A stretch of DNA of 39,034 nt from a virus, in IMG/VR virus record IMGVR_UViG_3300017917_001537, positions 1 to 39,034 of that record; one strand, given 5' to 3'. A program made the translations under genes and the position numbers. Position 1 is the first letter of the stretch. Each line of letters starts with the position of its first letter. Positions 123 through 35,535 of the stretch are shown here, one piece after another. The notes beneath the pieces are model-generated. The model worked only from the letters and a program-made list of their open reading frames with translations. It was not told where the DNA came from and ran no database searches.

Positions 123-3100
123 GATATTATTGCTGAACCGGGTGATGAGATTAAAAAAGAACTGAGCGCCTTTGAGAAGGCAATGGAAGATCTTAAAGGT
201 CGTACAAAGGCTGAACTTGTTGAACTTGCAAAGAGTTTAAATATTGAAAAGATCGGCGGTCTTAAAGTAGATAGTCCAAAATTGTTAGTTAAGAGATTGA
301 AGAAAGCAATTGCAGAAGCAATGTCAAGTCCAGTTGAAAAGGTTAAAGAGGCTGCTGAAGCTGCTGCTGATGAGGCTAAAGAAGTTACAAAGTCCATTAA
401 GCCAAAGGCTCCTCCAGCAACAGGAAAGAAAACAAAAGAAACTTCAGAAGCAGTGACGGAAAGTGTTGCTGAGGCTCAAGAGGAAAAAGATGTTGAGGCT
501 GTAAAAGAGCAGGCGGAAAAAGATAAAAAGTCTGTCGCATCAGACAAGCCAGAGGGAAAGCCATCAGGTAAGGCAAAAAATACTTCTAAAAAGAAAACTG
601 AAGAGGTCGCTGAAGCTCAAGAAAAAGTTGATCTTGAAGCCGTTACAGAACAGGCTGAGGAAGACAAGGTTGCTGTAAAAACTGGTGGTAAGAAACCTAC
701 TGGTAAGAAATCCACTGTTAAGAAAAAAGTTGAACAGGCTGTTGAAGAAGTTGCATCAGATGTTGCTAAAACAATTGAAAAGACAGTTGCAACAATTGCA
801 GATATTAAAGGTGTTCTTAATGCTCAAATGGCAGCAGCTCTTGCGTTTGCTGAAGATACTGGGTCATCAAGTGCTGCTTTAAATGTATCTAATAAAGAAG
901 CAAAATCAAAACAAAAACAAGATCGCAAACTAAAAAGAACAGTTATTGGTTCTAGTAGTGAAACAAGTTCTATCAAATATGAATTAGCCAGAAGACTTTC
1001 TTCTGTTCAAGAACTGTTTATTAATGCTGCTATGGCTCAAGCAATGAGTGTTGATGAAGTAATTGAATCACTAAAGACATTGGAATATAGTGCTGGTAAA
1101 AATGGTGTAAGAACATTCAAAATAACAAAAGAAAGATTTTTTGAATTAGCAAATCTATTAGGCGTGAGACTGCCACCAATATTCAATGAAATGGGCGAAC
1201 TCCTCAGTAAAACTGGTGGTGTATTAAGAATAGAAGAAGCAGCCCTTAAAGATTTAATATCTGCATTAACAAAAACAACACGAATCAAACCGGATTCAGC
1301 TTTGGCAAGGGCATTCCCAGAACTAATTAATAAAGTTGTTCTTGAATTTGAAGCAGAATTAATTAGGGCATTGTCATTTGGTGAAGCTGGAAAAGATATA
1401 TTCAATCTGCCATTCGCCACCAGATCATCTGGTCAAGGCTTTAGTTCAAGATTTAAAGCGGCATTTCAACCCATTCTTGATCTTGCTAGAAAACCAAGTA
1501 AACAGCAAAGAGAGGAAGCGGAAGCATTAGCTGCAAGAAGAGGATTTGTATCTACAGAGGATAAAGCAGAAAAGGATGCTCAAGCAAGAGACCGACAAGC
1601 AAAAGCTTTCAGGGATAGGCAAAGAGCTCAAAAGAAAGAGCAGGAAACTAAGAGGGCCGAAGAGGGCAAGATTGTTGATGGTATGAGCAAAGAGGTAACT
1701 GGAGGGGTACCTGCCTATGCTCCACCAAGCAAAGATAGAAGACAATTGTTTAATATCAAAGAAGAAGTTGATAAAGAACTGAAAAAAGCTTATGCAACAA
1801 TTGAAGAAAATTTTAAAGGCGATGCTGAAACAATTAAACAGCTAAAAAAGATTGCAGACGAAACAATTGCCGGTCCTAAAATCCGAGAATTTGTAAGAAT
1901 TCTTAGAAAACAATTGGCAGCTATTTCTTTATCAACATCAAAAAGCCCTGCCGAAAAAGCAAGTGAAATAAAAGCCTTAGTATCACAAGCAAAGAAGTTG
2001 TCAAAAGGATTTAAGTTGCCAAACTTGGCAACAGGAGAAAGCGTATTTACACCACCAACAATTGAAGGTAAACAACCTACAGGTGAGGGTTTTAAACCAA
2101 CAGGTCTTGGATATCCAGAAAGACCAAGAGCTGGTAAAAACAAAGAAGGTGAAGAGTATGATGCAATAAGTAAAGTCAATTTTGAAACAGCAGAAAAACT
2201 TGATGAAGCTGTTGAAAATGCAAAGAAACAACTTATTGAAGCACAAGATGCATTAAGACAAATTGAAGGTCTAAAGACAGACCTCTCTAGCGCAAAGAAA
2301 ACATCAACTAATCCGTTTAAACAAAGTGCATTTAAGAGACTGCAAGAAGGATTGAAGAAATTTGGTATTGAATCCAAAGTTACATTTGAAAAAGTTGATG
2401 AGGCTGAGGCAGAACTTCTTATTGCGATTGAAGAAAGAATCAAACAAGCAAAACTTGATCTTGAACAAGCACAGGCTAATTTGCAACAAGCATATAAGAA
2501 GCCATTTGGCGGTGGTGGATCGGGTACAACATCATTTGGTCTTCCATCAATGGAAATGCTTGACCCATTTGGAATGCCAATTGGTGGGCAAGGAAGAGGA
2601 AGTAGAAGAGCGCCACGAATTGGTCCAATGTCTGTTGCATTTGTTGATAAGGGTGATATAACAGGAAGCCTTACAACTGTATATGAAGCTATAAGACAAA
2701 AACTTAATATCCCAGTTGAAATTATGGATCAAGTTCTTAACCAATTAAGAACTGGCTATACAGATGCGGAAGGTAATGTTCGAAAAGCTCAAAATAAAAT
2801 CAATGAGGTTGGCGATCAAATGTCAACCCAGATTAGCGCCGGTCTTGATGAATTAGTAAAACAATTGCAAGAAACAATTGGGACATCTACTGACAGTATT
2901 GAAATCGTTAGAACAGCAATTATTAATGCTAGAAACAAATTCTATGCTCTTGAAAGGAAGGCTGCTAAAGAAGAAGCTGATGCTGGAAATCAGCAATTTG
3001 GTTTCAACATAGACAGATCTCAAAGACTTAATTTAGCAGCCGAAGTAGCAAATAGAATTAGAGAAACAAAAACTGCATCAGACAACTTCTTAGAATATCA

Positions 3101-6100
3101 AATCGACACTCTTAGATATATTGCAAGACAATTTGGTTTCACTGGATCTGGAACAAAAGAGCAAATGCGTAATTTCATAATTGCTCGACTTAATGAATTA
3201 GAGTTTGCAATTGAAGGAGCAACTGCTGAAACAGTCAATGCTGCAATTGAGGCTTCAAAAGATGCAACAGCAAAGGTTAAAAAGAAAAACGAAAAAGCTG
3301 AAAAGGCTGCAAAGAAAGCGGAAGAAGCAGAGCAAGAAGCAGATGCCACTACAGAAAAACCAAAGAAAGCACCAAGAAAGAAAAAAGAACTACCAGCCAT
3401 TTCTCCAAGTCAAATAAAAGCACTCATTAATGCTCAGATGGCAGAATCTCTCAAAACACTGCCAGTCGCTCCTGTTGAACCAACAAAGGTGGAGCCAGTT
3501 ACTCCTATCAAACCTAAATCTGTAAGGCTTCCAAGAGGTGTTAAGAAAGCACAAATTGATCAATTAATGCTTACTGTTAAACCAGCATTTGATGCAACTG
3601 TTGAAGATTTTTCCGCTAAGACAAAGGAAGAATTACTTTCAAGCCTTGGTATATTCAAGGCTATTCAGAGAGAGACAGCAATCCTCAACTATATTCTAGA
3701 AAAATACGGAATTGACATTAATGAATTAATTAAAAAGACTGTTGATGAGATAAGAGGCAGAAGTGCAAAGATTAAGTCTTCTGCAATGGGTATTTCAATC
3801 CCTGATTCCAAGATTATCCCAGCAAATATTTTGGGAAGTGACGCATTTAAACAACTTTTGAATGCGGGTGTTCCTCTTCAAGATCTGGAAGAGCAATTCC
3901 AATATATGAATAAGATCATAAAATTAAGTGTTAATGATTTAACTTATGAATCAGAAGACGCTCTTAAAGAAATTCTTAATACATTCTTGTTTATAAGCAA
4001 TGATGTTGATCTTGTTGGAAAATTATTTAAGGAAATGGGTATCAGTGTTGATATGGCTATTGACGACCTTCGTGCTGCCCTAAATATGATTGCTGAAGAA
4101 AGAGCATTTGCTGGTGGAACAGTGCGCCCCGCTGGTGGCGGTTCATTCCCTCCAGTTACATCTCCAACAACTCCTCCAACAACACTAAGAACTCCTCCAG
4201 CATCAGCGACTGCAACGACTACAGCAACAACTGCTGCCACAAAATCTACATTTAACTTTATTGGTGCTCTCTCCAAACTTGGATCGGCTCTTGGTGTTGT
4301 ATCTCTTGCTCCATTCAAAGCCTCTATTGCTATCACCGGTTTTGCATTTAAGATAACTGGAATTACTAAGTTATTCAATTTTGCTTTTCCCAAGGTTACT
4401 AAGGCTGATGCTCTCAACGCTCAAGGTGATTTGAAGAATACTATTATTGGTTACTTCTCTTTCTTAGGTGACATGATTAAAACTGGTTTCAAGAGCCTTG
4501 CTAATCGTCAAACATATGTTAAGGCATTAACTGGTTTAGCATCCATAAGTGGAGCAATGTTTAAAGTCTACGATGCAGCTATTGCTGCATCAATGCGTTT
4601 AATTCCTTTTGGAACAACTCTTTACAAAATTGTATCCGGCCCAATTAAACTGTTTGGTGGCGCTATTGCTGAAGCCGCTAAAGAATCAAGATCTGCTAAA
4701 ACAGGAATATCTGGGTTCTTCAAGGAATTTAGAAAGTCTTTGGGTACAAGTCTTTCTGGTATAGCCGGAGATATTAAATCAAAACTAGGTACAGCATTAA
4801 AGGGAGTTGGGGGTTCATTATCTGGATTTGGCTCATCAATTAAGGGCGGTCTGGTTTCCAACATTGGAATGAGCGCTGGAATGCTAGGAACAAGTCCTCT
4901 TGGAATGTTTGGTGGAAACATGCTTCAGAGCCTTATTACAAGTCTTTCATCTATTCCTGTAATTGGCACACCTGTTGTTCTGACACTAACACTAATAACA
5001 GGAGCGATAGCAGCTCTTGTAAAAACTCAAGACACATGGGGTGCAAAGAGCGAGCAAACTTCTAAAAACTTCAAAGAGGCGTTTAATAACATCAAGGCTG
5101 CTGCTGGCGCTCTGCTAAAGCCGATTGAGGATATGTTTGGTGTTTTCATTGGTGGAAATGAAGAATCAGGTAGCGCAACAGAAAGAGCGAGAGGTCGATT
5201 TGAAAAGTTCTCTGAATCAGTCGTCTCAATATCTAAAAAGATTAGAGTGTTTGTTGAGACCACACTGGTTCCAGCATTTAGAATTCTCCTTGCTTCAATC
5301 GTAGTCCTCATTAGAAAAGCCATCCCTGTTTTGTCATCTTTCTTTGGCTTATTAAAAGCTTTGTATGACAAATATGTAAATACAGCAGAAAAACAAATGG
5401 AAAAGGTTGGAAAAGCTTTTGAAAACGGCTTCACACCTGGAAGTTCTGCTCAAATGCGATTTGTTGAAGAGAATATTAAAAATGTAAAATCTGTTGGCGA
5501 AGCTTGGTCTGATTTCGTTTCTAAATTCGGCACTCTGCTCGCAGCATTTGGCATTTTGGTAAATGGCTTTATTGGAAACTTGGTTATTGAGATTGTTAAA
5601 GTTATTACAAGACTTCTTATTGATGCTCATGAACAAATTTTTATTGGCATTAATAACTTAATTGTTCTAGTCCTAAAAGGTATTGTTGCTTTAGTTGTTG
5701 AAGTTGTTAAGATACTTGTTTTAACAGTTACAAGAGGAATTAGTGCTCTACTAACGCCATTGACATGGTTGCCAAGAATTGGTGGAAAAATTAAAAATGC
5801 ATTAAATTCAATGAATGATGGTGTTGGATCTTTCTTTGATGGGATGAGGGATGGCGCTGTTAATGTTGTTGACGGTCTTTTGACTCCATCGTTTGACAGG
5901 GTTAATGCTGCTATTGGTAGCTGGAGTGACGCTTCTGATAACGCATTCGACAAGCTAAAAGAAAACAATAGAAAGACATTCACAAAGCAAGCTTTGGATA
6001 TGATTAAGGGTGTTCTTCCTGAAGGCGCTGGCTCTGGATTGTTTAAATCTTTCACCAACCTTATGAAGCAGGCTTTCCAAGATCCTGCTGCTGCAAAAGC

Positions 6101-9100
6101 TGCTGGTCAAGCAATTCAAAACTCAATTAAAGAAGGTTTGAAGAATCTTAAGGAATCTTATTTTGAATCTGTAATTGGTAACTTGGCTAATGCCATTGGA
6201 AATATTGGAGATGATCTTTCTAAGATTCTTAGTGAGCAAAGAGATGAAGCTCTTAAAGCCTATGATGACCAAATTGCAGGTATTGAGGCTCTTGCAGAAG
6301 CAGAAGAAAGATTAACTGCAACAGAAGAATACGAATCAAATAGAAGACAAAGAATTAAAGATAGAGAGTTGCAAAGAAACAACTATCAAAAAGAAAGGGC
6401 TTTGGCTATTTATGAAGGTCGAGTTGATGATGCAAGAACTCTTGACCTTGAAGAATTAAAGAATGTTGATGATTACAATAAAGAAATTGCCGATATGGAT
6501 AGATCAAGGCAAAGAGATTTGCAAGGTCAAAATAGACAAGATGCAATTTCTATTATTCAAAGAAATAGAGATGAGGCTGCAAAACTATTTGATGAGGCTA
6601 TTCAAGAATTTGAAGATTATGTTGAAGAAGTAACCAAGAATGGAACGATTTCTGAAACTCAATTAACTGAGCAATTTAAAAGAATTGCTGCTGAAGCCGA
6701 AAAGAAGTCGGGAGCAATTAATACTGCATTCCAAACATCATTCTCAAAATTGCCAGAGTTAATTAGAACTGGATTAGATCCAACAACATCATCATCTGGA
6801 TTTTTCTCAACTGAATTAGGAAAACTTGTTGAAACCGCAAAGGTTCGTTTTGGTCTTTCAACCGGGACTGGGGCAAATGCTGGATCAATTCTTGGTGTCA
6901 CATCAGAAATGCTCACAAGCGCATCGACTGGTATTCCATCTGTAATTTCAAACGCCTTTGGTTCTGGTGGAGCAATTCAAAATGCTTATGGCACAGCTCT
7001 TTCAAATCTTTCTACTTATATTGCAAATAAGAACGACTCTGGAGATGAAAAGAGTTTAACTGGAATTTTCAAAAAAGCAATTGCTGATGCAAACGCAGCA
7101 ATGGAGCAAGAAATTCTTAAATCACAAAGAGGAATTGGTAGTGCATTTGAATCAGTTGTTAACACGATTAATGAAAAGGTTAAAAAGCTTTCTCTTGCCG
7201 AAGCAGTTAAGAAGGGAATGGAAGAGGCAATTGCTACTGCAAAGAAAGGTGCGGGCGATATTGGCGATGCTATTGGTGGTGGAGGAGGTTCATCTGCTAA
7301 TAAGCCAAGAATAGTTGTTTCATATTGGAAGAGAGAAAAAGACTCCCTTGCATTCAGAAGATCAAAGGGCAGAGCACCAAACGAAACGGACTGGATTGGA
7401 ATATCAGAAACATCTGTTGACAGATATGTTGGTAGCACAACTCATGATGTAACAAGTACACCTGTTGGAACAAGACCGGCATTCTTCAAGGGTGGAAGAA
7501 TGTTCTATGGAAATGGTGGTCCAACGAAAGGGCCTGTTCAACAGGGCATTCCAGCAACATTGCATGGTGGCGAATATGTCATAAGAAATTCTGCTGTAAA
7601 GAAGTATGGCTGGGGCATGATGCAACAAATCAACCAAGGCTCTTATAAACCAAAAGAATATAAGAATGGTGGAATGGTAAAAGGCAAAAAGGCAATTACA
7701 GGCAGTATAAGAAGCATTGAGTCTAAATACTCTTCATCAAATATTAAAGATATTATTGAAAAAGCAGAAAATGAATTAATTAGTAAAGATAGAATAATTA
7801 ATTATTCAAAAGAAAATGAAAAGAAATTTAAAGATTATATTTCAAAAGGATATGTAAATCCAAATAATGTCTATGAATCTCCATTTGGAAATGACGGTCC
7901 GTTCCCTAATGTTCCTTATGCTGGTTTTAGATGGATGCCACAAGATTCTTTGTCAAAGAAAGATAAAACAAATTGGAGTCTAAGACAATTCAATGGTCTT
8001 GAGCCAATGTGGAAAGGTGGTAAAGGGGCTGGCAAGGATTGGAATGTTTGGAATGCCAAAGCCCAAAATGCAAAAAATCAAAATTCATTAATGGGAGATG
8101 TCAAGAGTACATTATTTGGTCTTACCGCTATTGTGACAGATATAAAGCATTCTGGCAGAAGAGCTTTTGGCGGAGAAGACATCAAGCAAATCTTTAATGA
8201 AAACGCTCCTACTGCAGCAAGAGTCGGTTCAGGAATCAACTTTGCATCAAATGTTCTTCCCTTTGTGCAGGCTGGTTACAAAGCAGGAGCTGGTGTAATT
8301 ACTAAGAATATTGGCAACTTGGGTGCTGGAACAATTGGTCAAGGTTTAGAAGCAAAAGCTCCTTGGTTAAATGCAATAGGAATGGAATATGACCCAATAA
8401 CTAAAACATGGGGCATGGCAGGATCTGCTATAAAACCAAATGTTGCTTCTGCTGTCACAACACCAAAAAATAAAGCAGCAGTGGAGTTGTTTAGAAAGCC
8501 TATTGTTCCTCAAAGAGTATCATATGATAAATCTCGTATGGTAACTGATTGGCGAGATGAAGTGTCTCAAAAAATTGCTGAAATTTACGATATTAATGGT
8601 GAAAGAGTCGCATTTGGTGCAGATGATTCCTTTAAGAGAAAGTTCCCATTTGTAAAAGTATTAAATAGAAATCCATTTGAAATTTCTGGCTTACCTTTTA
8701 ATTCTCCAAAAGGAATTCAATTAGCTAATGACTATATGCATGCACTTTTTGCTAATAAAGCACAACAAGGGTATGCGACTCAGGTTGATGCTTTGCTTTA
8801 CGCAATGATGCGTGGAGATATGAAGGCTGCTCTTGAATTTAATAGATTAGCAGGTGTAGGTCGTAGAACAAAACCAAAAGAAGAATCTGCTGCACAATTT
8901 ATGTCATATTTAAAGGAAAAGTTCCCTTATGTTATATCAGGAATGAGTGAACAAGGTATTGATAAATTTAATCCTAAAAATTTATTCTTAGTTCATGAAA
9001 CAATACATAAGCCTAAGATAGACAAAGATGGAAATCTTCTACTAGGACCAACTTCAAACTTCCAAACATATTTCCCAGAAATTGATAATATTGATGACTT

Positions 9101-11498
9101 AATAAAAGTTCATTTAGGTTTTCTTGGTAGGAATTTAGACCCAATTCCATATGCTCTTGAAGTCAAAGAAATAAAGCAAAGAATACTTGAAAACGCTAGA
9201 GAACAAGGTAAAGGAATTGTTAATAACACTATTTTTGGTCAAGGCAGAGACTACTATAGAGATACTGTTCACTTTGCATTAAATCATTTAGTTATGGGTC
9301 ATGGTCAAAGAGAAAGTCTAAAAGAGGGCTATGTTATAGTGGCTAATCTGATGGATGCTTTGAAAGCAAACCCTGGTGCTTTGACAAATCTTTATGCAGT
9401 TGATACATGGATGACACCCAAGCCGGGCGAGGCGCTGAAGTTCCCAGCTGGAACTTTTGATGTATTACCAGCAGGTGATGGTGCAAGCGATGCTGTTTCA
9501 AGACTTTTGTTTGACAAGGTATATCCAAAAGATAAATTAGGATACAATACAAAACCACAAGGTGCGCCTTATCCAACCATACCTGGTGGTGTACACGGCT
9601 CAGAATCTACTGAGTGGACAGCATACATTAGAAGATTGGCAAAAGCATTTAAAGTTCAATCAGGTCCGCATTTTGAATCTGCAAGTCAAAGAGCATCTGC
9701 AATTGAAAACTATTCATTATTCAATGAACTTCCAAGTTATTGGTATACTCTTTCCCCTAATGAGATTGCAAGACTCTTTTATAAGAGAAATATTTTTACT
9801 GGTGTAGAAAATAAAATCAAAAATATGAGGCAACCTGATATGTTTAAGGGTGGTCTAATTCCTAGCTTTGCAAAGGGAGGTTTTGTAAAGGGTAATGCCA
9901 ATGTTCCTAATGAGGATAATTATAATATATCTGATTTCCCAGATCCTCCGTTAGTCCCTGGAATGATTCGCCGTAGTAATCCTTATTTGGGATTCGGTGA
10001 GGACAGCAAAAAGGCGTTCTTTGAAAGTGTCCTTGAAAAGAGTTATCGTGCAGCAGAGGAAATGATTGGTTTTGGTTTGAAAGGATATCCAAAATATAAT
10101 TTCACTTCTTATGATGACGGTAGTGCTGCTATGCAAATAATTACTAATGAAAAAGATAAATATCTTACATGGTCTAACTCAATTAGTGGAAAATCTTCAA
10201 TTATGAATAATCCAAAAATAAAAAATTATTTAATTAAAGTTTTAAAAATGGCATATGACAAGGTGTACAAGGTCGCTTCGTTTACAGATAAATACTTAAT
10301 AGATAAAAATATACCAATTGAAGATATTCCACAATCTCCAAGTGGTGTCTTTGATGTAAGTCGAGTTGCAACAAATCAACTTGGAGATAACATTGATGAT
10401 AACGCAAAATTTCTTGGATATAATAATAAATTTAAAAAATTAAATATTGGATTTGTTTTTGATAAATTAATGATGGCGACATTTGGAAAAGACAAACGAA
10501 ATATGATGGGAGATATTTCCCCAACAGATTATGCTGGGTATAGAATGGGTCATGAAGTATTTTTTGATTCATTGAAGATGGCTCTTGAGAGATTTAATCT
10601 TTTAACAGGAATCCCATATAATTTGAAAGATGGTTATTCAAATATCTCTTCTAAAATTCTGAAAGCAAAAAACCAATTGCAATTAAATATTGTTCCATTT
10701 GGTAAATTTTTTGGTCGCAACAATGCAAAAATGGATGCTACTGATTTTGATAATTTAACAGCAAGAATTAGATATGACACGGATCCATTTACATTCCTTA
10801 GTAGTTCTTATATTGGTGAAGATTACATTGATAAACTGAAAAAATCAATTTCAGGTGTATTCCAGCATGAATTGGGTCATACTATTGGTTTATATCATTC
10901 GCACTACTACGGAGATCAGGCAAGTAGTGTTGATTTTATAAATGATCAAGGAGAAAGCATTATGTCATATAGTGCACCTCGAAGTCAGGGTTATCTTGCT
11001 GGAGATGTTGCTTACTTCCAAGCTTTGCGTAAGGCTGTTGGAATTAAGCCAACTAAGAAAAAGAAAATTCCTAAGAAGTTTGGTGGTGGAATAATTCCAT
11101 ATTTTGATGGCGGTCAAACATTTGGTCCAATGGGTCAAGGAATTCCAGCAATTCTTCATGGTGGAGAGTTTGTAATAAGAAAGGCTGCTGTTGACAAGTA
11201 TGGACTTGATCTTCTCAAGCAGATTAATAATGGAATTTATGCTCCAAAGGTTCCTAAGTTTAATATGCCAATGTCTAACTATACAAAGATTTCTGGAGTG
11301 AGCGGTTCTCCACAAATGTCCTCTTCAGAAACTACCCATAATTACAATTTCTATGTCGATAACTTTATTGGAGAAACCGAATGGTTCAACTCCATGATGA
11401 AGGAATATAATATGAAGGTAGTCCCTGCAAACCAAAAGCAAGCAGGTCTTGAATCTCGTGTCATTAAAACTTATAATGGTATCAACAGAGGAATGTAA
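3..11498 (+). CDS. Tape measure protein, 5'-partial, with C-terminal cargo modules
   Basis: This protein sets tail length and is normally released with the DNA at infection. The frame is open to the window's left edge: 60 codons without a stop precede the ATG at 183, so that Met is probably internal and the visible part is 3831 residues. Counting from the ATG at 183, residues 3-43 resemble a Rho-N/SAP fold. Residues 45-200 are Lys/Ala/Glu-rich with a 47-residue tandem repeat. Long coiled-coil stretches follow. Hydrophobic segments lie near 1587-1613, 1699-1727, 1782-1813 and 1820-1857, as usual for tape measures. A charged coiled coil spans about 2030-2190. The C-terminal third has LHGGEYVIR at 2460-2468, an unrecognised module, a metzincin signature at 3562-3572 and a second LHGGEFVIR at 3658-3666. 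Its stop overlaps the next start (TAATG). The tape measure call rests on length, composition, hydrophobic segments and position before the tail-tip genes; the extra modules are unusual. Confidence 0.85.
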   Translation, partial: PSGGTPPSGGSPTPKPSPAPAPAPSGGSAPASPVTVVDLNDIIAEPGDEIKKELSAFEKAMEDLKGRTKAELVELAKSLNIEKIGGLKVDSPKLLVKRLKKAIAEAMSSPVEKVKEAAEAAADEAKEVTKSIKPKAPPATGKKTKETSEAVTESVAEAQEEKDVEAVKEQAEKDKKSVASDKPEGKPSGKAKNTSKKKTEEVAEAQEKVDLEAVTEQAEEDKVAVKTGGKKPTGKKSTVKKKVEQAVEEVASDVAKTIEKTVATIADIKGVLNAQMAAALAFAEDTGSSSAALNVSNKEAKSKQKQDRKLKRTVIGSSSETSSIKYELARRLSSVQELFINAAMAQAMSVDEVIESLKTLEYSAGKNGVRTFKITKERFFELANLLGVRLPPIFNEMGELLSKTGGVLRIEEAALKDLISALTKTTRIKPDSALARAFPELINKVVLEFEAELIRALSFGEAGKDIFNLPFATRSSGQGFSSRFKAAFQPILDLARKPSKQQREEAEALAARRGFVSTEDKAEKDAQARDRQAKAFRDRQRAQKKEQETKRAEEGKIVDGMSKEVTGGVPAYAPPSKDRRQLFNIKEEVDKELKKAYATIEENFKGDAETIKQLKKIADETIAGPKIREFVRILRKQLAAISLSTSKSPAEKASEIKALVSQAKKLSKGFKLPNLATGESVFTPPTIEGKQPTGEGFKPTGLGYPERPRAGKNKEGEEYDAISKVNFETAEKLDEAVENAKKQLIEAQDALRQIEGLKTDLSSAKKTSTNPFKQSAFKRLQEGLKKFGIESKVTFEKVDEAEAELLIAIEERIKQAKLDLEQAQANLQQAYKKPFGGGGSGTTSFGLPSMEMLDPFGMPIGGQGRGSRRAPRIGPMSVAFVDKGDITGSLTTVYEAIRQKLNIPVEIMDQVLNQLRTGYTDAEGNVRKAQNKINEVGDQMSTQISAGLDELVKQLQETIGTSTDSIEIVRTAIINARNKFYALERKAAKEEADAGNQQFGFNIDRSQRLNLAAEVANRIRETKTASDNFLEYQIDTLRYIARQFGFTGSGTKEQMRNFIIARLNELEFAIEGATAETVNAAIEASKDATAKVKKKNEKAEKAAKKAEEAEQEADATTEKPKKAPRKKKELPAISPSQIKALINAQMAESLKTLPVAPVEPTKVEPVTPIKPKSVRLPRGVKKAQIDQLMLTVKPAFDATVEDFSAKTKEELLSSLGIFKAIQRETAILNYILEKYGIDINELIKKTVDEIRGRSAKIKSSAMGISIPDSKIIPANILGSDAFKQLLNAGVPLQDLEEQFQYMNKIIKLSVNDLTYESEDALKEILNTFLFISNDVDLVGKLFKEMGISVDMAIDDLRAALNMIAEERAFAGGTVRPAGGGSFPPVTSPTTPPTTLRTPPASATATTTATTAATKSTFNFIGALSKLGSALGVVSLAPFKASIAITGFAFKITGITKLFNFAFPKVTKADALNAQGDLKNTIIGYFSFLGDMIKTGFKSLANRQTYVKALTGLASISGAMFKVYDAAIAASMRLIPFGTTLYKIVSGPIKLFGGAIAEAAKESRSAKTGISGFFKEFRKSLGTSLSGIAGDIKSKLGTALKGVGGSLSGFGSSIKGGLVSNIGMSAGMLGTSPLGMFGGNMLQSLITSLSSIPVIGTPVVLTLTLITGAIAALVKTQDTWGAKSEQTSKNFKEAFNNIKAAAGALLKPIEDMFGVFIGGNEESGSATERARGRFEKFSESVVSISKKIRVFVETTLVPAFRILLASIVVLIRKAIPVLSSFFGLLKALYDKYVNTAEKQMEKVGKAFENGFTPGSSAQMRFVEENIKNVKSVGEAWSDFVSKFGTLLAAFGILVNGFIGNLVIEIVKVITRLLIDAHEQIFIGINNLIVLVLKGIVALVVEVVKILVLTVTRGISALLTPLTWLPRIGGKIKNALNSMNDGVGSFFDGMRDGAVNVVDGLLTPSFDRVNAAIGSWSDASDNAFDKLKENNRKTFTKQALDMIKGVLPEGAGSGLFKSFTNLMKQAFQDPAAAKAAGQAIQNSIKEGLKNLKESYFESVIGNLANAIGNIGDDLSKILSEQRDEALKAYDDQIAGIEALAEAEERLTATEEYESNRRQRIKDRELQRNNYQKERALAIYEGRVDDARTLDLEELKNVDDYNKEIADMDRSRQRDLQGQNRQDAISIIQRNRDEAAKLFDEAIQEFEDYVEEVTKNGTISETQLTEQFKRIAAEAEKKSGAINTAFQTSFSKLPELIRTGLDPTTSSSGFFSTELGKLVETAKVRFGLSTGTGANAGSILGVTSEMLTSASTGIPSVISNAFGSGGAIQNAYGTALSNLSTYIANKNDSGDEKSLTGIFKKAIADANAAMEQEILKSQRGIGSAFESVVNTINEKVKKLSLAEAVKKGMEEAIATAKKGAGDIGDAIGGGGGSSANKPRIVVSYWKREKDSLAFRRSKGRAPNETDWIGISETSVDRYVGSTTHDVTSTPVGTRPAFFKGGRMFYGNGGPTKGPVQQGIPATLHGGEYVIRNSAVKKYGWGMMQQINQGSYKPKEYKNGGMVKGKKAITGSIRSIESKYSSSNIKDIIEKAENELISKDRIINYSKENEKKFKDYISKGYVNPNNVYESPFGNDGPFPNVPYAGFRWMPQDSLSKKDKTNWSLRQFNGLEPMWKGGKGAGKDWNVWNAKAQNAKNQNSLMGDVKSTLFGLTAIVTDIKHSGRRAFGGEDIKQIFNENAPTAARVGSGINFASNVLPFVQAGYKAGAGVITKNIGNLGAGTIGQGLEAKAPWLNAIGMEYDPITKTWGMAGSAIKPNVASAVTTPKNKAAVELFRKPIVPQRVSYDKSRMVTDWRDEVSQKIAEIYDINGERVAFGADDSFKRKFPFVKVLNRNPFEISGLPFNSPKGIQLANDYMHALFANKAQQGYATQVDALLYAMMRGDMKAALEFNRLAGVGRRTKPKEESAAQFMSYLKEKFPYVISGMSEQGIDKFNPKNLFLVHETIHKPKIDKDGNLLLGPTSNFQTYFPEIDNIDDLIKVHLGFLGRNLDPIPYALEVKEIKQRILENAREQGKGIVNNTIFGQGRDYYRDTVHFALNHLVMGHGQRESLKEGYVIVANLMDALKANPGALTNLYAVDTWMTPKPGEALKFPAGTFDVLPAGDGASDAVSRLLFDKVYPKDKLGYNTKPQGAPYPTIPGGVHGSESTEWTAYIRRLAKAFKVQSGPHFESASQRASAIENYSLFNELPSYWYTLSPNEIARLFYKRNIFTGVENKIKNMRQPDMFKGGLIPSFAKGGFVKGNANVPNEDNYNISDFPDPPLVPGMIRRSNPYLGFGEDSKKAFFESVLEKSYRAAEEMIGFGLKGYPKYNFTSYDDGSAAMQIITNEKDKYLTWSNSISGKSSIMNNPKIKNYLIKVLKMAYDKVYKVASFTDKYLIDKNIPIEDIPQSPSGVFDVSRVATNQLGDNIDDNAKFLGYNNKFKKLNIGFVFDKLMMATFGKDKRNMMGDISPTDYAGYRMGHEVFFDSLKMALERFNLLTGIPYNLKDGYSNISSKILKAKNQLQLNIVPFGKFFGRNNAKMDATDFDNLTARIRYDTDPFTFLSSSYIGEDYIDKLKKSISGVFQHELGHTIGLYHSHYYGDQASSVDFINDQGESIMSYSAPRSQGYLAGDVAYFQALRKAVGIKPTKKKKIPKKFGGGIIPYFDGGQTFGPMGQGIPAILHGGEFVIRKAAVDKYGLDLLKQINNGIYAPKVPKFNMPMSNYTKISGVSGSPQMSSSETTHNYNFYVDNFIGETEWFNSMMKEYNMKVVPANQKQAGLESRVIKTYNGINRGM
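465..746 (+). repeat. Tandem 47-residue repeat in the tape measure gene
   Basis: Two consecutive units of 141 bases begin at 465 and 606. Both start with VAEAQE, continue with [VL]EAV.EQAE.DK, and end in a Lys/Gly/Thr-rich tail. The units differ at many positions, so the duplication is not recent. The encoded region is highly charged and probably an extended helix or linker. Confidence 0.75.
7491..7677 (+). repeat. Glycine-rich tape-measure element, copy 1 (LHGGEYVIR)
   Basis: This segment encodes GGRMFYGNGG, then a QGIPA.LHGGEYVIR core, then AVKKYG and MMQQIN. It matches the copy near the C-terminus at about 11085-11240, which has QGIPA.LHGGEFVIR, AVDKYG and LLKQIN. Elements of the LHxGEYV type are common near the C-terminus of tape measure proteins. 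Two diverged copies in one protein mark the borders of an inserted region. Confidence 0.8.
7690..9840 (+). other. Unrecognised module of the tape measure protein (cargo 1)
   Basis: This segment of about 700 residues lies between the first glycine-rich LHGGE element and a short Gly-rich linker (GGLIPSFAKGGFVKG) at about 9849. It does not look like coiled-coil tape measure sequence; it is rich in aromatic, Pro and His residues like a globular domain. Two conspicuous motifs are LVHETIHKP near residue 2936 and RDTVHFALNHLVMGHG at 3026-3041 (numbered from the ATG at 183). I do not recognise the family. The paired His motifs could mark a catalytic or metal site, but that is inference. Confidence 0.45.
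9900..11075 (+). other. Metzincin-like zinc protease module of the tape measure protein (cargo 2)
   Basis: Residues 3562-3572 (10866-10898), numbered from the ATG at 183, read HELGHTIGLYH. This is a full HExxHxxGxxH zinc-binding and catalytic signature. Twenty-two residues later is SIMSY with Met3594 (10962-10964), the form of a metzincin Met-turn, followed by a polar helix (LAGDVAYFQALRKAVG) as in matrixin/serralysin-type enzymes. The preceding roughly 330 residues would hold the N-terminal subdomain but are not recognisable by eye. The fold is inferred from the motif pair. The module is flanked by glycine-rich linkers. Confidence 0.7.
11085..11240 (+). repeat. Glycine-rich tape-measure element, copy 2 (LHGGEFVIR)
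   Basis: The segment encodes GGGIIPYFDGG, QGIPAILHGGEFVIR, AVDKYG and LLKQINNG. It closely parallels copy 1 at about 7491-7677. It lies about 110 codons before the stop, the normal place for this element in tape measure proteins. Copy 1 is therefore the displaced or duplicated one. Confidence 0.8.
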
Positions 11499-11896
11499 TG
11501 TCAGTTATTAGTTTTTTATCATTAAATAATCAGGAAATTACCGAGCAAGGTCGAAAAATATCAGACACTGTAACAATCAATGCCGGTCAGGTTGAGCTTG
11601 ATAACGGAGCATCAAGGCGTTATCTAAAAACAAATAAAAGAACCTTCACATTCCAATGGGATTGGCTTCCATCCCTAGAATCACATACAATTGATAACCG
11701 TAAAGGTAGAGATTATATTAAAGATTTAGCATTAACAGTTAGAAATAAAATTTTAATGAAAATTAAAATGGATCACAATGAAGAAGCCGAGTTGATTTAT
11801 GTTTATATAAATGATTATAGTGAAGATCTTGTAAGAAGAGATCCTTCAACCGGGTGTGATTATTTCACAGTTTCTCTTACAGTTGAGGAAGCATAA
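11498..11896 (+). CDS. Tail protein, distal-tail-like (paralogue of next gene)
   Basis: A 132-residue protein with ATG overlapping the tape measure stop (TAATG) and an AGAGGA Shine-Dalgarno site upstream. It is predicted to be mostly beta-strand. Its central FQWDWLPS..., TIDNRKGRDYIKD and NDYSEDLVRRD match the C-terminal half of the next protein, where the equivalents are LSWEWLPS, TIDKRQARNFIKE and TNYSEDLIRRD. The pair looks like an old gene duplication. Its place straight after the tape measure is where distal tail (Dit) proteins sit, so a tail-tip ring or adaptor role is likely. The exact family was not recognised. Confidence 0.65.
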   Translation: MSVISFLSLNNQEITEQGRKISDTVTINAGQVELDNGASRRYLKTNKRTFTFQWDWLPSLESHTIDNRKGRDYIKDLALTVRNKILMKIKMDHNEEAELIYVYINDYSEDLVRRDPSTGCDYFTVSLTVEEA

Positions 11897-12720
11897 TGGC
11901 AAATGATCCAACTTATAACATAAGTCCTTTATTAAGAAGCGCTCTTTTTAACGGTGGTGCTGTTATATATCTTGGTGCTGCTAATTTAACGATTGAATCA
12001 GACATGTCTGTTTCTTCTTACGACTTATACAAACTAGGCGCTGCTGATTTAACAATTGAATCTGATGTTTCTGCATCTGGTTTTGGAATACTTTTTGAAA
12101 GCGTTTTGCTGGATGGTGAGGCAGACTTAACGGCATCTGGGTTTGCCATAAGAACAGCCTCAGCCATTCTAGATGGCCTTCTAGATGTGTCCATAGCCTC
12201 TCCAGTGCTTATTGATATCGTAGGGGCTATATCTTTCTCGATTTCTAGTAATTTTATAATTCCAGATCTTATTAGGTTTACCCCAACTGCACAGAATCCC
12301 GGCTCTTATATTCCTTTGGTTCTTCTTGATGGCATTCCTTTGACAGATCAAAATCGTAAATTTAATAATTCAAATAAACCAGTTTTTGTAGAGAAGTCAA
12401 ATTGGAACAGTTCAAAATCTAGATATTATAAAAGATCAACAAGTGGTAAACAATCTTTTAAGTTATCTTGGGAATGGCTACCTTCAGAAAAGGAAAATAC
12501 GATTGATAAAAGGCAGGCTAGAAACTTTATAAAAGAAAAGTCAATGGATCCGGATTATCACACTTTGACTGTTATTAAATATGGGGCAAATCCAGAAGAT
12601 GTTTTTGAAGAAACAGAGTATAATGTTTTTATTACTAATTATTCTGAAGATTTGATTCGTAGAGATTTGATTTCTGGCACATATTTTTGGAGATGTGATG
12701 TGGAACTTGAGGAGATTTAA
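11896..12720 (+). CDS. Tail protein with repeat N-terminus and distal-tail-like C-terminus
   Basis: A 274-residue protein starting at an ATG that overlaps the previous stop (TAATG), with GAGGA upstream. Residues 1-130 are hydrophobic and Ser/Ala-rich with diverged repeats of about 21 residues; LGAANLTIESDMS and LGAADLTIESDVS are the first two. Residues about 135-274 are homologous to the whole preceding protein (WEWLPS, TIDKRQARNFIKE, NYSEDLIRRD). The layout suggests a duplicated adaptor domain that gained a repeat-built extension, perhaps for contact with the tape measure or the tail-tip protein. The role comes from context. Confidence 0.6.
   Translation: MANDPTYNISPLLRSALFNGGAVIYLGAANLTIESDMSVSSYDLYKLGAADLTIESDVSASGFGILFESVLLDGEADLTASGFAIRTASAILDGLLDVSIASPVLIDIVGAISFSISSNFIIPDLIRFTPTAQNPGSYIPLVLLDGIPLTDQNRKFNNSNKPVFVEKSNWNSSKSRYYKRSTSGKQSFKLSWEWLPSEKENTIDKRQARNFIKEKSMDPDYHTLTVIKYGANPEDVFEETEYNVFITNYSEDLIRRDLISGTYFWRCDVELEEI
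11971..12130 (+). repeat. Diverged repeats of about 63 bases in a tail gene
   Basis: The units beginning near 11971 and 12034 encode LGAANLTIESDMSVSS and LGAADLTIESDVSASG, 63 bases apart. A shorter third unit near 12115 encodes GEADLTASGF. The translation is conserved better than the DNA, which suggests selection on a repeated beta-strand or hairpin pattern. Confidence 0.6.
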
Positions 12721-15700
12721 TGATTAATAAAGATATTTATGGTAAACCTCTGTCAAACACTTTTTTATCAGCTATAGATGCCTATGCTCAAAAAGTAAAG
12801 CCAAAAATTTTAGTAACTTTTTTAGACAGTAGACATGTTGATAATCTAACTGTTACAACAAACGATCCATATCCTTCAAACTCAAGAGGCACCTATGCCC
12901 AGCAAATGAGTGGCAACTCTCTCTTAGGTGGTTATTTCTTTAAACCAGAACAAAGTATGAACGGAACTGTTAGACAAGCCTACACATGGGCTGTTATTGG
13001 CGATAAAGACAACATGAATAAAGTTATTCGTGCTGATGGAACTTGGCACTGTATGCCTAGCGACCTTGAAGATAATTATGAATTTGGCTGGAGATCATAT
13101 ACCGCATCAACGGCAAATGCTCATGCAAACGGAGGGTATGAGTTCACAACCCCAATAACTCTTGATTATAATTTTACGGAAAGAAAAGTAAATAAAATTA
13201 GAGTTACAACATCAGAATTTTCAGGAAAGATAAGTGCATATAAAATTGAAGTGTATAATAATACACTATCTGCTTTTTACAATACATATTCATCAATTTC
13301 TGTTGATGAATATTACAACGAGCACATATTGCCATCAAATATTTCTAATGATGTAAGCAGAATTCTATTAACAATTTATAGTACACAAAATCCTAATGAT
13401 TACGCAAGAGTTCATGAAGTTGAACCTATATATGAAGTCGATATTACTGATTATGCAATTTCTCATAGCGTTAATAGACAAGGTGAGTTATGGGAAAATT
13501 CAATTCCTATTGCTGGAACCGGGTCATCAAGTGCTACAATAACTCTTGATAATACAACAAGAGCTTTTAATCCATTTGATAATTCTTCTTTATATGGAAA
13601 ATATATGAAGAAGGATTTAAAAATAAAAATTTATAATGGTTGGAGAATTGTTAAAACAGATGATGTGATTGTAAATACACAACTTATGAGCAATATCACA
13701 TCTGTATCAAATACAATCACTGTATCTGATGCTTCTAAATTTCTTAATGGTAATGCAACTAATACATTTACTCTAATAATTGAGCCTAATACTCCTAATG
13801 AAGAGATAATTCTTTGCTCAACAAGAACAGATGTGGTTGTTGATATTTTAGAAAGAGGTTATGCGAATACGATTGCAAGATCACACAGTTCGGGTGCTAC
13901 AGTTTCTTTTGACCCATACGAATATGTGAATGCTGGAGAATTTTATGTCGATGAGTGGACAGGTGGTACTTCTATGGAGGTTTCTGTCAAATGTTTAGAT
14001 AAAAGTAAATTCTTGACAGAGAAACAAATTACAAAAGGCTTTTATGTTCAAAATTCAACAGTTGGTGATGCTATTGAAAAAATGTTGATGAGCATAAATA
14101 TTTCTAAAAATGAATATATTCAAATAAAACCTTATACAAATTTTGCAAAAGAAAATGCTATATTACTTTATTCCTTTGATACTCCAATTCAAAGGGATGA
14201 AACCTCTATTTTATTAAATCAAGGATTAAGATATCGAATTTGGAAAATTGCAGTAGGAAAAGAGAATGAGGTTAAAGATATTAAAGCAGATGCTCTTGAT
14301 GTGATTCTTTCTAAATATGACAAGGCTATGGGGGCAAAAGCATACATACCACCAACATATGTTGGTTATGATATTGATGTATCCGATCCTCTAAACCCCA
14401 AAGCTGTCAATCTATCTAATTACTCTTTTGTAGAGGGTTCTAATACTCATAGTGAATATTACAATGGTGTTATTGATGGATATTTCATACCTCCGGCTAC
14501 CTCTGGGTATAACTTAAATATAACAACAATTAATTCCGGTGTTAGAGCGTTTATTGATGATACCCTAGTTCTTGACACTTGGACAAGATTAAAAACAAAT
14601 ACAGACACAATAAGTCTTTCATCTTATGATTATCTTGGAGATAATATTGACCTTGATGCTGGCGTTCCATATAAGATAAGAATTGAATTCTATCATGCTG
14701 AAGGTCCAAAAGATTCTGGGAAAGCGATGACCCTCAGATTGGGAATGGAACAATCTTCAGGGGCAGCTTCAAATTATGCTGCTTCTCCTGCAAGTCAATT
14801 TACAACAGTTGTTGCTAAAGATTATGTTGGATCAAGAAATTCTACTTTTGCAACTGTAACAAGTTCAAGCCCATATGCAATTAATAAAAATTTAAAAAAT
14901 AGAAATCATTATCAAAATGATGCTGTTTATGTTAATGGACCAACATTAAATCAAGTAACAGGTTTAGTTTCCGAACCCAACAATAAATCTGTATTAGTAG
15001 GTCAAGTTACAAGAAATGCAATTAATTATAATACATATATAAGAATTCCATACAGCGAATCTTTAAATTTAGCAAACAATCAATCTTCAAATTTTACTGA
15101 TGAATGGACAATTGAGTTGTATGTTAAATTACCTTACACTTTTTCTAATAGTGGAGAATATGTCAGCAACTGGAATAATTCATCGTCAACAAGCGGATTT
15201 GAATTCTTCAACACTTCTTCTTCAAATGGTTTTCGTGTTGTAAAAAATAATGGAGATGTTAAAACTGTATCGTCAAACACAGCATTATCGACAACTCAAT
15301 ATTCTCATATTGTTGCAAAGCATACTGATGGGGCAATTCATTATTATGTTAATGGCGTTAAGTTAGGGCAGACAGACGGCGTTGGTACGCAGGCTAGTTG
15401 GGTAAATGATATAACAATTGGTGGCCGAGGAGCATCGTTTTCTGCTGGAGCCGAGGTCGCACCATCAACGGTTAGAGATTTCTATATTGATGAATTTGCC
15501 ATGTATAACAGGGCTTTAACAGATGATGAGGTTTTGAATAGATATATATCAACGCAGATTAGAGAATTAACCAATTTCCCTCATCTTTATGGTAATGAAC
15601 AGAGTGCAAAAGCTGTTGTTGATGCCATTACATTAGCAGATTTTGGTAGATTTTATGTTGATGAAGAAAATAAGTTTAAATATATACATTTTTATAGATA

Positions 15701-16691
15701 TTTTGAATCATCAATATCCCAGCATGCTAATGTTCAGAAAACAATAAGTAGTAATTCTCACATTATATCTGGAGATTATAATGTCCAATTGCAAACTAAT
15801 AAGGTTACTATAAATGTAACTGAACAAAACCCTCTAATATCAAACAGACAAGGTATATGGACAGCAACACCAGACCCATCTACTCTTGGTGTTGTCAAAT
15901 TAACATCAAATATAACATCAACTTCAAACACAATACCTGTTACAACAACAGATAGACCACCATTTCCGACAAGCGGTTATATTAAAATTGATCAAGAGAT
16001 TATGAAATATGAGTCAATTAATTCTACAAATTTCCTGTCGGTTACTAGAGGAGAATTTGATACAACACCTGTTGCTCACTATGCAAATGATCTGGTTAGA
16101 GAGGTGCGTTATTATGATATTAAATACGACAACGCCCCTGCTTTTAATATTCAAAAACCTTTTATAACATCCATATCAAATACTTATCCACCAAGAATTG
16201 AATTGGTAAGATTTTCAACCGGCCCGTACAATGCTCAACTAATATTGGCTGCATCATCGTCTGTCCCAGAAGGGGAGTTGGCATTTATACAGGGGACAAA
16301 CCCTCAAACTCAAGAAGTTAATTACACATCAATAGCAGGTACACCTGTTATTAAGCAAAGTACAAATAATTTAATTAAAAAACAAACAGCTACTCTTTCC
16401 GATGATATTAGAAAATATGGATTAAAAGAAGTTGTTATTGATAATGAATATATATATAGCGCGGCAAAAGCCCAACAAATTGCTGATTTTTTAATAAGTA
16501 AATTTGCTACTCCTGTTCCTGTATTGCAAATAGATTCAATGGCAATACCAATTTTACAAATTGGTGATAGAATTAGAATATCTGACTTTACAAGTCTTAA
16601 TATTTCAAATACAGATTATTGGGTTGTTTCTCATGACTTAAATGTTGGAGAAACCTTAGATCACAAAATAACACTAAGGAAGGTGGTGTAA
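12720..16691 (+). CDS. Tail-tip protein with PA14-like and LamG-like domains
   Basis: A 1323-residue protein, ATG overlapping the previous stop (TTTAATG), with GAGGAG upstream. It occupies the tail-associated (Tal/baseplate hub) position. Residues about 575-680 resemble a PA14 domain: VRAFIDDTLVLDTW, then DAGVPYKIRIEFYHAEG. Residues about 770-945 resemble a LamG/concanavalin jelly roll: WTIELYVK, HIVAKHTDGAIHYYVNG and a closing DEFAMYNRALTDDEV. Both folds commonly bind carbohydrates. A small beta-domain occurs twice, at about 320-395 and 1056-1126 (SNITS.SNTI.V ... RG ... H...). The C-terminal WVVSHDLNVGETLDHKITL resembles the end of tail hub proteins. A role in surface glycan recognition is inferred. 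Confidence 0.75.
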   Translation: MINKDIYGKPLSNTFLSAIDAYAQKVKPKILVTFLDSRHVDNLTVTTNDPYPSNSRGTYAQQMSGNSLLGGYFFKPEQSMNGTVRQAYTWAVIGDKDNMNKVIRADGTWHCMPSDLEDNYEFGWRSYTASTANAHANGGYEFTTPITLDYNFTERKVNKIRVTTSEFSGKISAYKIEVYNNTLSAFYNTYSSISVDEYYNEHILPSNISNDVSRILLTIYSTQNPNDYARVHEVEPIYEVDITDYAISHSVNRQGELWENSIPIAGTGSSSATITLDNTTRAFNPFDNSSLYGKYMKKDLKIKIYNGWRIVKTDDVIVNTQLMSNITSVSNTITVSDASKFLNGNATNTFTLIIEPNTPNEEIILCSTRTDVVVDILERGYANTIARSHSSGATVSFDPYEYVNAGEFYVDEWTGGTSMEVSVKCLDKSKFLTEKQITKGFYVQNSTVGDAIEKMLMSINISKNEYIQIKPYTNFAKENAILLYSFDTPIQRDETSILLNQGLRYRIWKIAVGKENEVKDIKADALDVILSKYDKAMGAKAYIPPTYVGYDIDVSDPLNPKAVNLSNYSFVEGSNTHSEYYNGVIDGYFIPPATSGYNLNITTINSGVRAFIDDTLVLDTWTRLKTNTDTISLSSYDYLGDNIDLDAGVPYKIRIEFYHAEGPKDSGKAMTLRLGMEQSSGAASNYAASPASQFTTVVAKDYVGSRNSTFATVTSSSPYAINKNLKNRNHYQNDAVYVNGPTLNQVTGLVSEPNNKSVLVGQVTRNAINYNTYIRIPYSESLNLANNQSSNFTDEWTIELYVKLPYTFSNSGEYVSNWNNSSSTSGFEFFNTSSSNGFRVVKNNGDVKTVSSNTALSTTQYSHIVAKHTDGAIHYYVNGVKLGQTDGVGTQASWVNDITIGGRGASFSAGAEVAPSTVRDFYIDEFAMYNRALTDDEVLNRYISTQIRELTNFPHLYGNEQSAKAVVDAITLADFGRFYVDEENKFKYIHFYRYFESSISQHANVQKTISSNSHIISGDYNVQLQTNKVTINVTEQNPLISNRQGIWTATPDPSTLGVVKLTSNITSTSNTIPVTTTDRPPFPTSGYIKIDQEIMKYESINSTNFLSVTRGEFDTTPVAHYANDLVREVRYYDIKYDNAPAFNIQKPFITSISNTYPPRIELVRFSTGPYNAQLILAASSSVPEGELAFIQGTNPQTQEVNYTSIAGTPVIKQSTNNLIKKQTATLSDDIRKYGLKEVVIDNEYIYSAAKAQQIADFLISKFATPVPVLQIDSMAIPILQIGDRIRISDFTSLNISNTDYWVVSHDLNVGETLDHKITLRKVV

Positions 16692-23063: not shown

Positions 23064-23243
23064 ATGAAGAATAAAAAAGTTATTGAAGGTGAAGCTAAAG
23101 ACATTGAAACCATCGCAAGATTAAGACCTTGGATGGAAGATGAATGGAAAGCCATTAATGGTAAGTTCAATAAAACAATTTTAAGGACTGATTATGATGC
23201 CAATCGGGATATCTTCAAATTTAAAATCATATTCTGTATATAG
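23064..23243 (+). CDS. Small hypothetical protein between helicase and primase
   Basis: A 59-residue frame starting 2 bases after the helicase stop and ending 50 bases inside the primase frame. It is charged, with IETIARLRPWMEDEWKAINGK in the middle and a hydrophobic end. There is no clear Shine-Dalgarno site, so coupling to the helicase is likely if it is expressed. The 130-base gap would otherwise be unusually long for this operon, which supports a real gene. No function is assigned. Confidence 0.45.
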   Translation: MKNKKVIEGEAKDIETIARLRPWMEDEWKAINGKFNKTILRTDYDANRDIFKFKIIFCI

Positions 23244-24138: not shown

Positions 24139-24146
24139 GAGAAAAA

Positions 24147-24794: not shown

Positions 24795-24810
24795 TTTAAT
24801 TCGGGAGGTG

Positions 24811-24840
24811 GAGGGGTCTGGTAAAACAGACCCCTCTTAA
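24811..24840 (+). terminator. Intrinsic transcription terminator
   Basis: GAGGGGTCTG (24811-24820) pairs perfectly with CAGACCCCTC (24827-24836), a 10-bp GC-rich stem with a 6-base GTAAAA loop. It is followed by TTAACCTTTT, a broken T-rich tail. It lies in a 61-base gap between the ssDNA-binding protein gene and the nucleotidase gene, and probably ends or attenuates the replication transcript. Confidence 0.8.
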
Positions 24841-24855
24841 CCTTTTAAGGAAACA

Positions 24856-25389: not shown

Positions 25390-25390
25390 A

Positions 25391-30358: not shown

Positions 30359-30477
30359 AACTTCTTTTTAAAGTGATTTTTAGTCTAGTGATGCTTGCTG
30401 GATTTTCAATGTTCACACTGTATTCCATTCTTGTAGCATTTGCAGCAGCAGATGATCACGATTATTTCTACGAATAA
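30355..30477 (+). CDS. 40-residue single-pass membrane protein
   Basis: A small frame with start overlapping the recombinase stop (ATGA). It encodes a short basic N-terminus (MKLLFK), one hydrophobic segment of about 25 residues (VIFSLVMLAGFSMFTLYSIL and on), and an acidic, aromatic tail (DDHDYFYE). The ATGA overlap is the coupling used throughout this operon, which supports translation. The hydrophobic pattern argues against chance. A membrane role is clear from sequence; the function is unknown and there are no holin hallmarks beyond the single span. Confidence 0.55.
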   Translation: MKLLFKVIFSLVMLAGFSMFTLYSILVAFAAADDHDYFYE

Positions 30478-30496
30478 ATTTGATAAAACCCATTTT

Positions 30497-30519: not shown

Positions 30520-30537
30520 CAAAACGAAAGGAGCATT

Positions 30538-30984: not shown

Positions 30985-30987
30985 GAA

Positions 30988-33910: not shown

Positions 33911-33917
33911 ATATCTT

Positions 33918-35534: not shown

Positions 35535-35535
35535 T

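Follow-up and report, generated by a model that had tools for sequence, protein, structure and literature searches.

The window analysed here is a 39,034-nucleotide stretch of viral DNA (IMG/VR record IMGVR_UViG_3300017917_001537), and an open reading frame at its 5' edge encodes a phage tape measure protein (TMP). The identification rests on a profile match of the 3771-residue ORF to PHROG 3547, on its hydrophobic segments and on the tail genes that surround it; location in the tail tube and a length-setting role have not been shown in virions. Residues were counted from the ATG at 183, and the start codon is uncertain because the ORF is open at the window edge. TMP relatives were present in 44 of the 50 records tested. 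Promoter and terminator scans of positions 7000 to 12000 yielded promoter matches at chance level only. The features are collected in Table 1.

Table 1. Features of the tape measure protein gene in the window (L numbers, related loci)
Feature	Positions	Residues	Strand	Basis or remark
Tape measure protein (TMP), 3771 aa	183..11498		+	PHROG 3547, E 1.8e-9; ORF 5'-open at window edge
TMP core stretch, six hydrophobic segments	4287..5756	1369-1858	+	hydropathy scan
Linker copy 1	7500..7643	2440-2487	+	linker HMM built from TMP set
Cargo region	7644..11093	2488-3637	+	absent in L156, L159 and L192
Weak glycine-zipper-like segment	8214..8348	2678-2722	+	within cargo region
D1 cargo domain, function unknown	8496..9839	2772-3219	+	common to at least 12 other TMPs
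Short FKGG/FAKGG spacer, D1 to metzincin region	9840..9893	3220-3237	+	read from translation
Metzincin domain	10566..11051	3462-3623	+	profile match; Pfam Reprolysin_4; serralysin profile match
Zinc site HELGHTIGLYH	10866..10898	3562-3572	+	in-frame translation
Met-turn SIMSY	10956..10970	3592-3596	+	in-frame translation
C-terminal helix GDVAYFQALRKAVGI	11001..11045		+	predicted helical; aligns with DIAxxxxL helix of other TMP metzincins
Linker copy 2	11094..11237	3638-3685	+	linker HMM
Conserved TMP C-terminus	11238..11495	3686-3771	+	comparison with related TMPs

The sequence-only reading had noticed a metzincin signature inside the TMP, consisting of a zinc site, a Met-turn and a helical tail. 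Both motifs, the sequence hallmarks of the metzincin clan MA(M), proved to be in frame, with 22 residues from the third zinc-site histidine to the methionine of the Met-turn, and the tail is predicted to be helical. The glutamate of the zinc site is residue 3563. Profile searches also supported the signature. Pfam Reprolysin_4 (PF13583) matched the whole TMP with an E value of 4.7e-6 and 26.8 bits (30.3 bits for the domain), exceeding the curated cut-off of 22 bits, over profile positions 138-185 of 203 only; six further metzincin Pfam models matched the TMP, each below its own cut-off. A single-sequence phmmer search of the window domain against the PDB gave only E 0.2, so a multi-sequence profile was needed. 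When the profile was built from the window domain and the other TMP metzincins, it matched serralysins with an E value of 1.1e-6, followed by astacin and matrix metalloproteinases (MMPs). No family for the TMP metzincins was found in PHROGs at a useful E value.

The strict pattern HExxH...H...S[IV]M[SD]Y did not occur in 5000 shuffles of the window TMP. With a looser metzincin pattern and 2597 distinct ORFs from related phage loci, all 16 matches fell in TMP ORFs; these account for 34% of the residues in that set, and the shuffle expectation was 0. Using the window domain as a query against 96 TMPs, we found that the best matches were other metzincin TMPs. We consider it highly probable that a metzincin domain sits in the TMP.

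The window domain shares HExxHxxGxxH, the Met-turn and the C-terminal helix with the serralysin and matrixin metzincins (MEROPS M10 and neighbours; Pseudomonas alkaline protease 1akl, snapalysin 4hx3 and karilysin 4in9). However, it lacks the RTX repeats of the serralysins (the M10B trait GGxGxD is absent from the TMP), the cysteine switch of the matrixins (the M10A trait P[RK]CGxP is likewise absent) and cysteines (none in residues 3251-3640). It is also embedded in a 3771-residue putative virion protein, and its N-terminal half is unmatched by sequence.

An AlphaFold2 model of the metzincin region had modest confidence (pLDDT 56, pTM 0.57). The order of structural elements in the model fits the metzincin fold, in which a twisted sheet and the active-site helix are followed by a helix-bearing C-terminal subdomain, and Foldseek returned no significant match for the model. 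All 50 entries listed by a second aligner for the same model were metzincins, with Z scores of 7.9 for snapalysin, 7.5 for karilysin and about 7 for MMPs and serralysin, but a Z score of 7.9 can be reached by unrelated models. The structure prediction is favourable to the fold first read from the motifs, if only weakly.

Near the TMP C-terminus lies a linker of about 48 residues with the motif QGIPAxLHGGEYVIR. While the window TMP has two linkers that flank the cargo, cargo-free close relatives have one. Several interchangeable modules can occupy the space between the linker copies, the metzincin among them; further cargo types in related TMPs are Rpf-like transglycosylases, a sortase that retains its catalytic residues, glycine-zipper segments and D1. 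One profile search and two fold searches found no credible match for D1, although the 470-residue model can mask a domain match. Both the swappable nature of the cassette and D1, a second conserved domain upstream of the metzincin, had been missed in the sequence-only reading.

Cargo exchange was seen at the DNA level between near-identical phages, in which the metzincin was replaced by unrelated cargo while the DNA on both flanks remained 94-99.7% identical. Locus L269, which carries a metzincin, and L259 are 99.7% identical downstream and about 97% identical upstream of the cargo; for the metzincin locus L255 and L254, the flank identities are 97.4% and 95.8%. The joints of the swaps lie at the linker, no more than 6 bases away from it on the downstream side. 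That the TMP harbours an exchangeable cargo site is hardly in doubt.

Metzincins were found in at least eight distinct cargo types of related uncultured phages, every one within a TMP. The identity of the other types to the window domain is only 20-30%. In the alignment of eight types, the first two histidines and the glutamate are invariant, the third zinc ligand is histidine in seven and, in L134, aspartate; the Met-turn is retained throughout as S-[IV]-M-[SD]-Y. The homologue check set in the sequence-only reading thus turned out favourable. An IMG/VR scan for which only three of the metzincin domains served as seeds confirmed six loci, each of them a TMP in which linkers flank the domain. 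IMG/VR scans with the window metzincin region or the TMP core found no relative, and the related loci were reached instead by searches with DnaB and the TMP C-terminus. No metzincin relative was found when the metzincins of the window, L255 and L113 were compared with named phages by tblastn. A weak tblastn match in cyanophage S-CAM4 was dropped, as no HExxH was present in the 1708 residues inspected. A scan of genome contigs with the metzincin alignment found none; the TMP C-terminus as query gave one record only, whose label is that of an archaeon MAG, which is too little for host assignment. The closest named relatives of the polymerase are from Streptomyces phages and are only 38% identical; the host of the phage is unknown.

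We propose that the domain is a metzincin-type (M10/serralysin-like) zinc endopeptidase that forms part of the exchangeable TMP cargo and cuts a host envelope protein at entry. We give this reading a probability of roughly 0.6, with activity and substrate inferred. Taken on its own, the cutting of an envelope protein at entry is about evenly balanced, and there are no activity or substrate data. The cargo would travel in the phage tail and exit with the tape at infection. Once outside the tail, the metzincin could fold, bind zinc and cleave a surface-layer, wall-anchored or membrane protein of the host cell envelope, giving passage to the tape and DNA. The linkers may serve as flexible spacers and as recombination homology, which would allow the entry tool to be changed with the rest of the tape unchanged. 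Companion cargo that acts on envelopes, namely the Rpf-like transglycosylase and the sortase that retains its catalytic residues, speaks for this reading. It is also established that TMPs can carry wall-cutting domains (PMC6116005). Against the reading, D1, the glycine zippers and the sortase could equally suit intracellular effectors, and it is unexplained how such a domain is accommodated in the tail tube.

On the other hand, the metzincin may cross the membrane and cut an intracellular host protein, such as a defence or regulatory protein, with the swapped cargo forming an arms-race repertoire similar to that of polymorphic toxins. We regard this as rather unlikely, since the companion transglycosylase-like and sortase domains work outside the membrane and bacterial metzincins are, to our knowledge, mostly secreted enzymes. 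However, cargo swaps fast between near-identical phages, several cargoes contain glycine-zipper segments comparable to those of a T6SS effector and Burkholderia TMPs (PMC10240207), and actinobacterial injection systems have TMP-like effectors with variable domains (PMC13277306).

It is improbable that the domain is a pseudo-enzyme or spacer, a zinc-binding fold merely binding a host protein or lengthening the tape. The highly divergent sequences, the aspartate ligand in L134 and the modest structural model would fit such a role, but the glutamate and first two histidines have been kept in all eight types despite the low identity. The L255-L267 comparison gave a dN of 0.50 and a dS of 1.25, and the resulting dN/dS of about 0.4 also opposes a spacer, though dS is near saturation. 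Selective constraint could not be measured for the window metzincin itself, which lacks a close homologue. Least likely is a maturation protease that trims the tape near its C-terminus in tail assembly, as the phage lambda tape is trimmed and as the earlier idea that the metzincin processes the tape itself would have it: the domain directly precedes the conserved C-terminal 130 residues, but the linker and C-terminus are the same in relatives with no cargo or unrelated cargo, which means that trimming cannot require the metzincin.

An envelope-cutting metzincin would resemble the peptidoglycan-cleaving TMPs of T5 (pb2), mycobacteriophage TM4 and phiIPLA35 (PMC6116005), in which an enzyme likewise lies within the tape and is presumed to work on the cell envelope when the phage enters. 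By contrast, the predicted substrate of the window cargo is protein and not cell wall, and such cargo, bracketed by duplicated linkers, is exchanged among near-identical phages. In the literature searched, we found no description of a metzincin or other protein-cutting class in TMPs, or of clean recent TMP cargo swaps. Wall-cutting enzymes in tapes are known, and the protein-cutting class appears to be an undescribed addition. If the reading is true, some phages enzymatically breach protein barriers on entry. More tentatively, and with somewhat less than even confidence, the tape could be a polymorphic delivery vehicle whose linker-flanked sites are loaded with exchangeable enzymes (metzincins, sortase, transglycosylases, D1 and others), which would be ejected into the host before the DNA, there to take apart or reprogram proteins of the envelope or the cell interior; the first proteases known in a phage tape would then be these metzincins.

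The actinobacterial contractile injection system effectors Sle1 and Tme are similarly TMP-like with variable functional domains (PMC13277306, PMC11126660). However, they belong to bacterial nanomachines rather than phages, their domains are C-terminal and not between linkers, and no protease domain is noted in the portions of these two sources that were consulted. The linker-flanked site marks where a tape tolerates an enzyme domain, which bears on the origin of injection-machine effectors from phage tapes. A survey of protein-fragment shuffling in phages described domain mosaicism in tail proteins and flagged TMPs by sequence, but could not confirm recent mosaicism in them (PMC10684548). Recent exchange of this kind is seen in the L269/L259 and L255/L254 pairs, where the replacement of cargo at the linker-flanked site is resolved nearly to the base.

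By its sequence, the first ORF of the window, a virus record of 39,034 bases, is a tape measure protein (TMP). It has six hydrophobic segments (aa 1369-1858), and downstream of it is a gene for a tail fibre with S74 chaperone; in a relative, L270 (L numbers denote related virus loci gathered for comparison), genes for a head-tail adaptor and for the major tail protein precede the TMP on its upstream side. The sequence-only reading had picked out a metzincin zinc site and Met-turn in this protein, and both were correctly located and lie in the TMP frame. The Pfam model Reprolysin_4 matches the window TMP above its curated cut-off, and six further metzincin models match, each below its own cut-off. 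The motif pair was absent from 5000 shuffles of the window TMP, and all 16 pattern matches among 2597 distinct ORFs of the related loci were in TMP ORFs.

Features of the window and of related virus loci
Feature	Position	Description	Support
Tape measure protein	window 183-11498	3771 aa, first ORF, open to window edge	PHROG 3547, E 1.8e-9
Zinc site HELGHTIGLYH	window 10866-10898	in TMP frame	
Met-turn SIMSY	window 10956-10970	in TMP frame	
D1, unnamed domain preceding the metzincin	window 8496-9839	found in at least 12 other TMPs	
Linker copies	window TMP aa 2440-2487 and aa 3638-3685		
Protein of 1323 aa	window 12720-16691	3' of TMP; has domains of the PA14 and concanavalin A-like (Laminin_G_3) types, likely binds glycans	
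Sortase	L113 13465-14100	cargo slot after metzincin, inside TMP	Pfam E 4.9e-22; PDB sortases to 1e-12
C2H2-type zinc finger (CGICGKGFANGGLLRAHQHTGH)	L113 11014-11082	single finger, within the metzincin-containing cargo	Pfam E 0.005, below cut-off
Tryptophan halogenase gene	L270 7264-8736	5' of tail genes	PHROG E 1e-99

Direct searches of named phages and IMG/VR with the window metzincin domain found no relatives. Using the window DnaB as a query, we obtained 80 related virus loci, with a related TMP in 44 of the 50 records tested, and queries with the TMP C-terminus brought in further related TMPs. All relatives are uncultured contigs. These TMPs have in common a core, at about aa 1440-2380 of the window TMP, and the C-terminus, at about 3630-3771, while the region between varies. 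Each contains at least one copy of a linker of about 48 aa that includes QGIPAxLHGGEYVIR. Two or three copies are present in 38 of the 96 distinct TMP sequences and one in the rest, some of which are fragments ending within the variable region, or cargo. The cargo between multiple linkers spans about 360 to 1860 aa in nearly all 38 TMPs. In L156, whose C-terminus is the most similar to that of the window among full-length relatives (82% identical), the alignments to window aa 1365-2491 and to aa 3628-3771 run over one and the same linker, and the cargo is therefore absent. A stretch of about 1000 aa common to one clade (L123, L125, L130-L133 and L135), between the core and the single linker, was left out of the swapped cargo; unlike that cargo, it looks internally repetitive in self-alignments. 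In genome_contigs, a relative of the TMP C-terminus was found only once (L274 589-921); the record is titled as an archaeon MAG (NZBO01000058.1) but may be a virus contig that was binned wrongly.

The metzincin-like sequence occupies an exchangeable site in the TMP. L269 (the L129 phage, with metzincin cargo) and L259 (glycine-zipper cargo) are 97.3-97.5% identical over 6.4 kb upstream and 99.7% identical over 9983 bases downstream, yet their cargo is mostly unrelated. L255 (metzincin) and L254 (D1) have no cargo in common; their flanks are 95.8% (7.9 kb upstream) and 97.4% (3.5 kb downstream) identical. In a third case, L260 has the first 142 cargo residues in common with L255 and then D1, between flanks of 94% (upstream) and 91% (downstream) identity. 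By arithmetic from the alignments, downstream identity restarts at 10723 in L269 (linker 2 start near 10718) and at 9992 in L255 (linker 2 start near 9986). These alignments are most simply read as the outcome of recombination, with the linker common to both partners providing the downstream homology. Chimaeric assembly could account for one contig, but it is implausible for repeated independent cases, since L255, L256 and L257 come from separate records and are mutually consistent.

The metzincin itself recurs among these tape measures: at least eight types of cargo contain it (window, L113/L168, L121, L129/L268, L134, L146/L195, L255/L256 and L267). A scan seeded solely by three metzincin domains confirmed six loci, L267 among them, all TMPs with flanking linkers. 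The metzincin domains of L267 and L255 are 50% identical, yet their TMP C-terminal types differ; the dN/dS ratio for this pair is about 0.4 (dN 0.50, dS 1.25), a rough value because dS is near saturation. In L134, the third zinc ligand is Asp (HELMHAIFGAPD).

As a lone query against the PDB, the window domain reached metzincins only at E 0.2. A profile of this domain and six other TMP metzincins matched serralysins at E 1.1e-6, across the zinc site, Met-turn and C-terminal helix, followed by astacin and MMPs. The AlphaFold2 model built from the TMP metzincin alignment (pLDDT 56, pTM 0.57) has a helix, three strands, the zinc helix and a C-terminal helix, which is the metzincin order. Foldseek gave no significant match for this model (top row, TACE). 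Among Foldseek's 389 candidates, VIA-align listed 50 entries, all metzincins, the best being snapalysin (Z 7.9, 109 residues, rmsd 3.3); in contrast, when the neighbouring D1 was modelled likewise, a single row exceeded Z 2. Because a Z of this size is not proof by the tool's own caveat, the model makes a metzincin fold likely only. The window domain is neither a serralysin proper, as it lacks RTX repeats, nor a matrixin proper, as it lacks the cysteine switch and any cysteines.

D1 also occurs in L134, L141, L199, L202, L203, L208, L239, L254 and L260. Counted from window position 8469, its invariant residues are His176, Glu177, Arg264, His268 and His401, in the H, E, R, H, H pattern LFLVHET... 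RDTIHFALNHLV.GH. Pfam, profile and fold searches found no recognised relative of D1, which may represent a new enzyme family. In the L113 sortase, GGHR and FSCHPLGSTKLR were found, so the His, Cys and Arg needed for catalysis appear to be present. L141 and L147 have a transglycosylase-like domain (PF06737; E 5.7e-8 and 5.1e-6, respectively). Strong glycine zippers occur in L128, L262 and L121, and weak ones in the window.

On ejection, the tapes of siphoviruses enter the envelope, and wall hydrolases are part of some of these tapes (PMC6116005). We infer that the protease would exit with the tape, fold after leaving and clear a protein obstacle from the host envelope; its activity, substrate and timing are likewise inferred. 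This envelope role is favoured because the companion cargo includes a transglycosylase and a sortase. The metzincin could instead be an intracellular effector, a role left possible by glycine zippers (PMC10240207) and by TMP-like effectors of injection systems (PMC13277306); we keep this option open. The earlier suggestion that the protease processes the tape itself is disfavoured, since relatives manage without it.

Enzyme-bearing tapes are already known. The sequence-only reading knew of no established group of metzincin-bearing tape measure proteins, and a literature search that combined tape measure proteins with metzincins or metalloproteases gave no relevant paper, as judged by title and abstract; this is weak evidence because most subscription papers fall outside its coverage. 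Elsewhere in the window, positions 23194-36621 hold genes for a DnaG-like primase, DnaE-type polymerase III, a methyltransferase, a RecA-like protein, pyrimidine dimer glycosylase, cytosine methylase and a glycosyltransferase.
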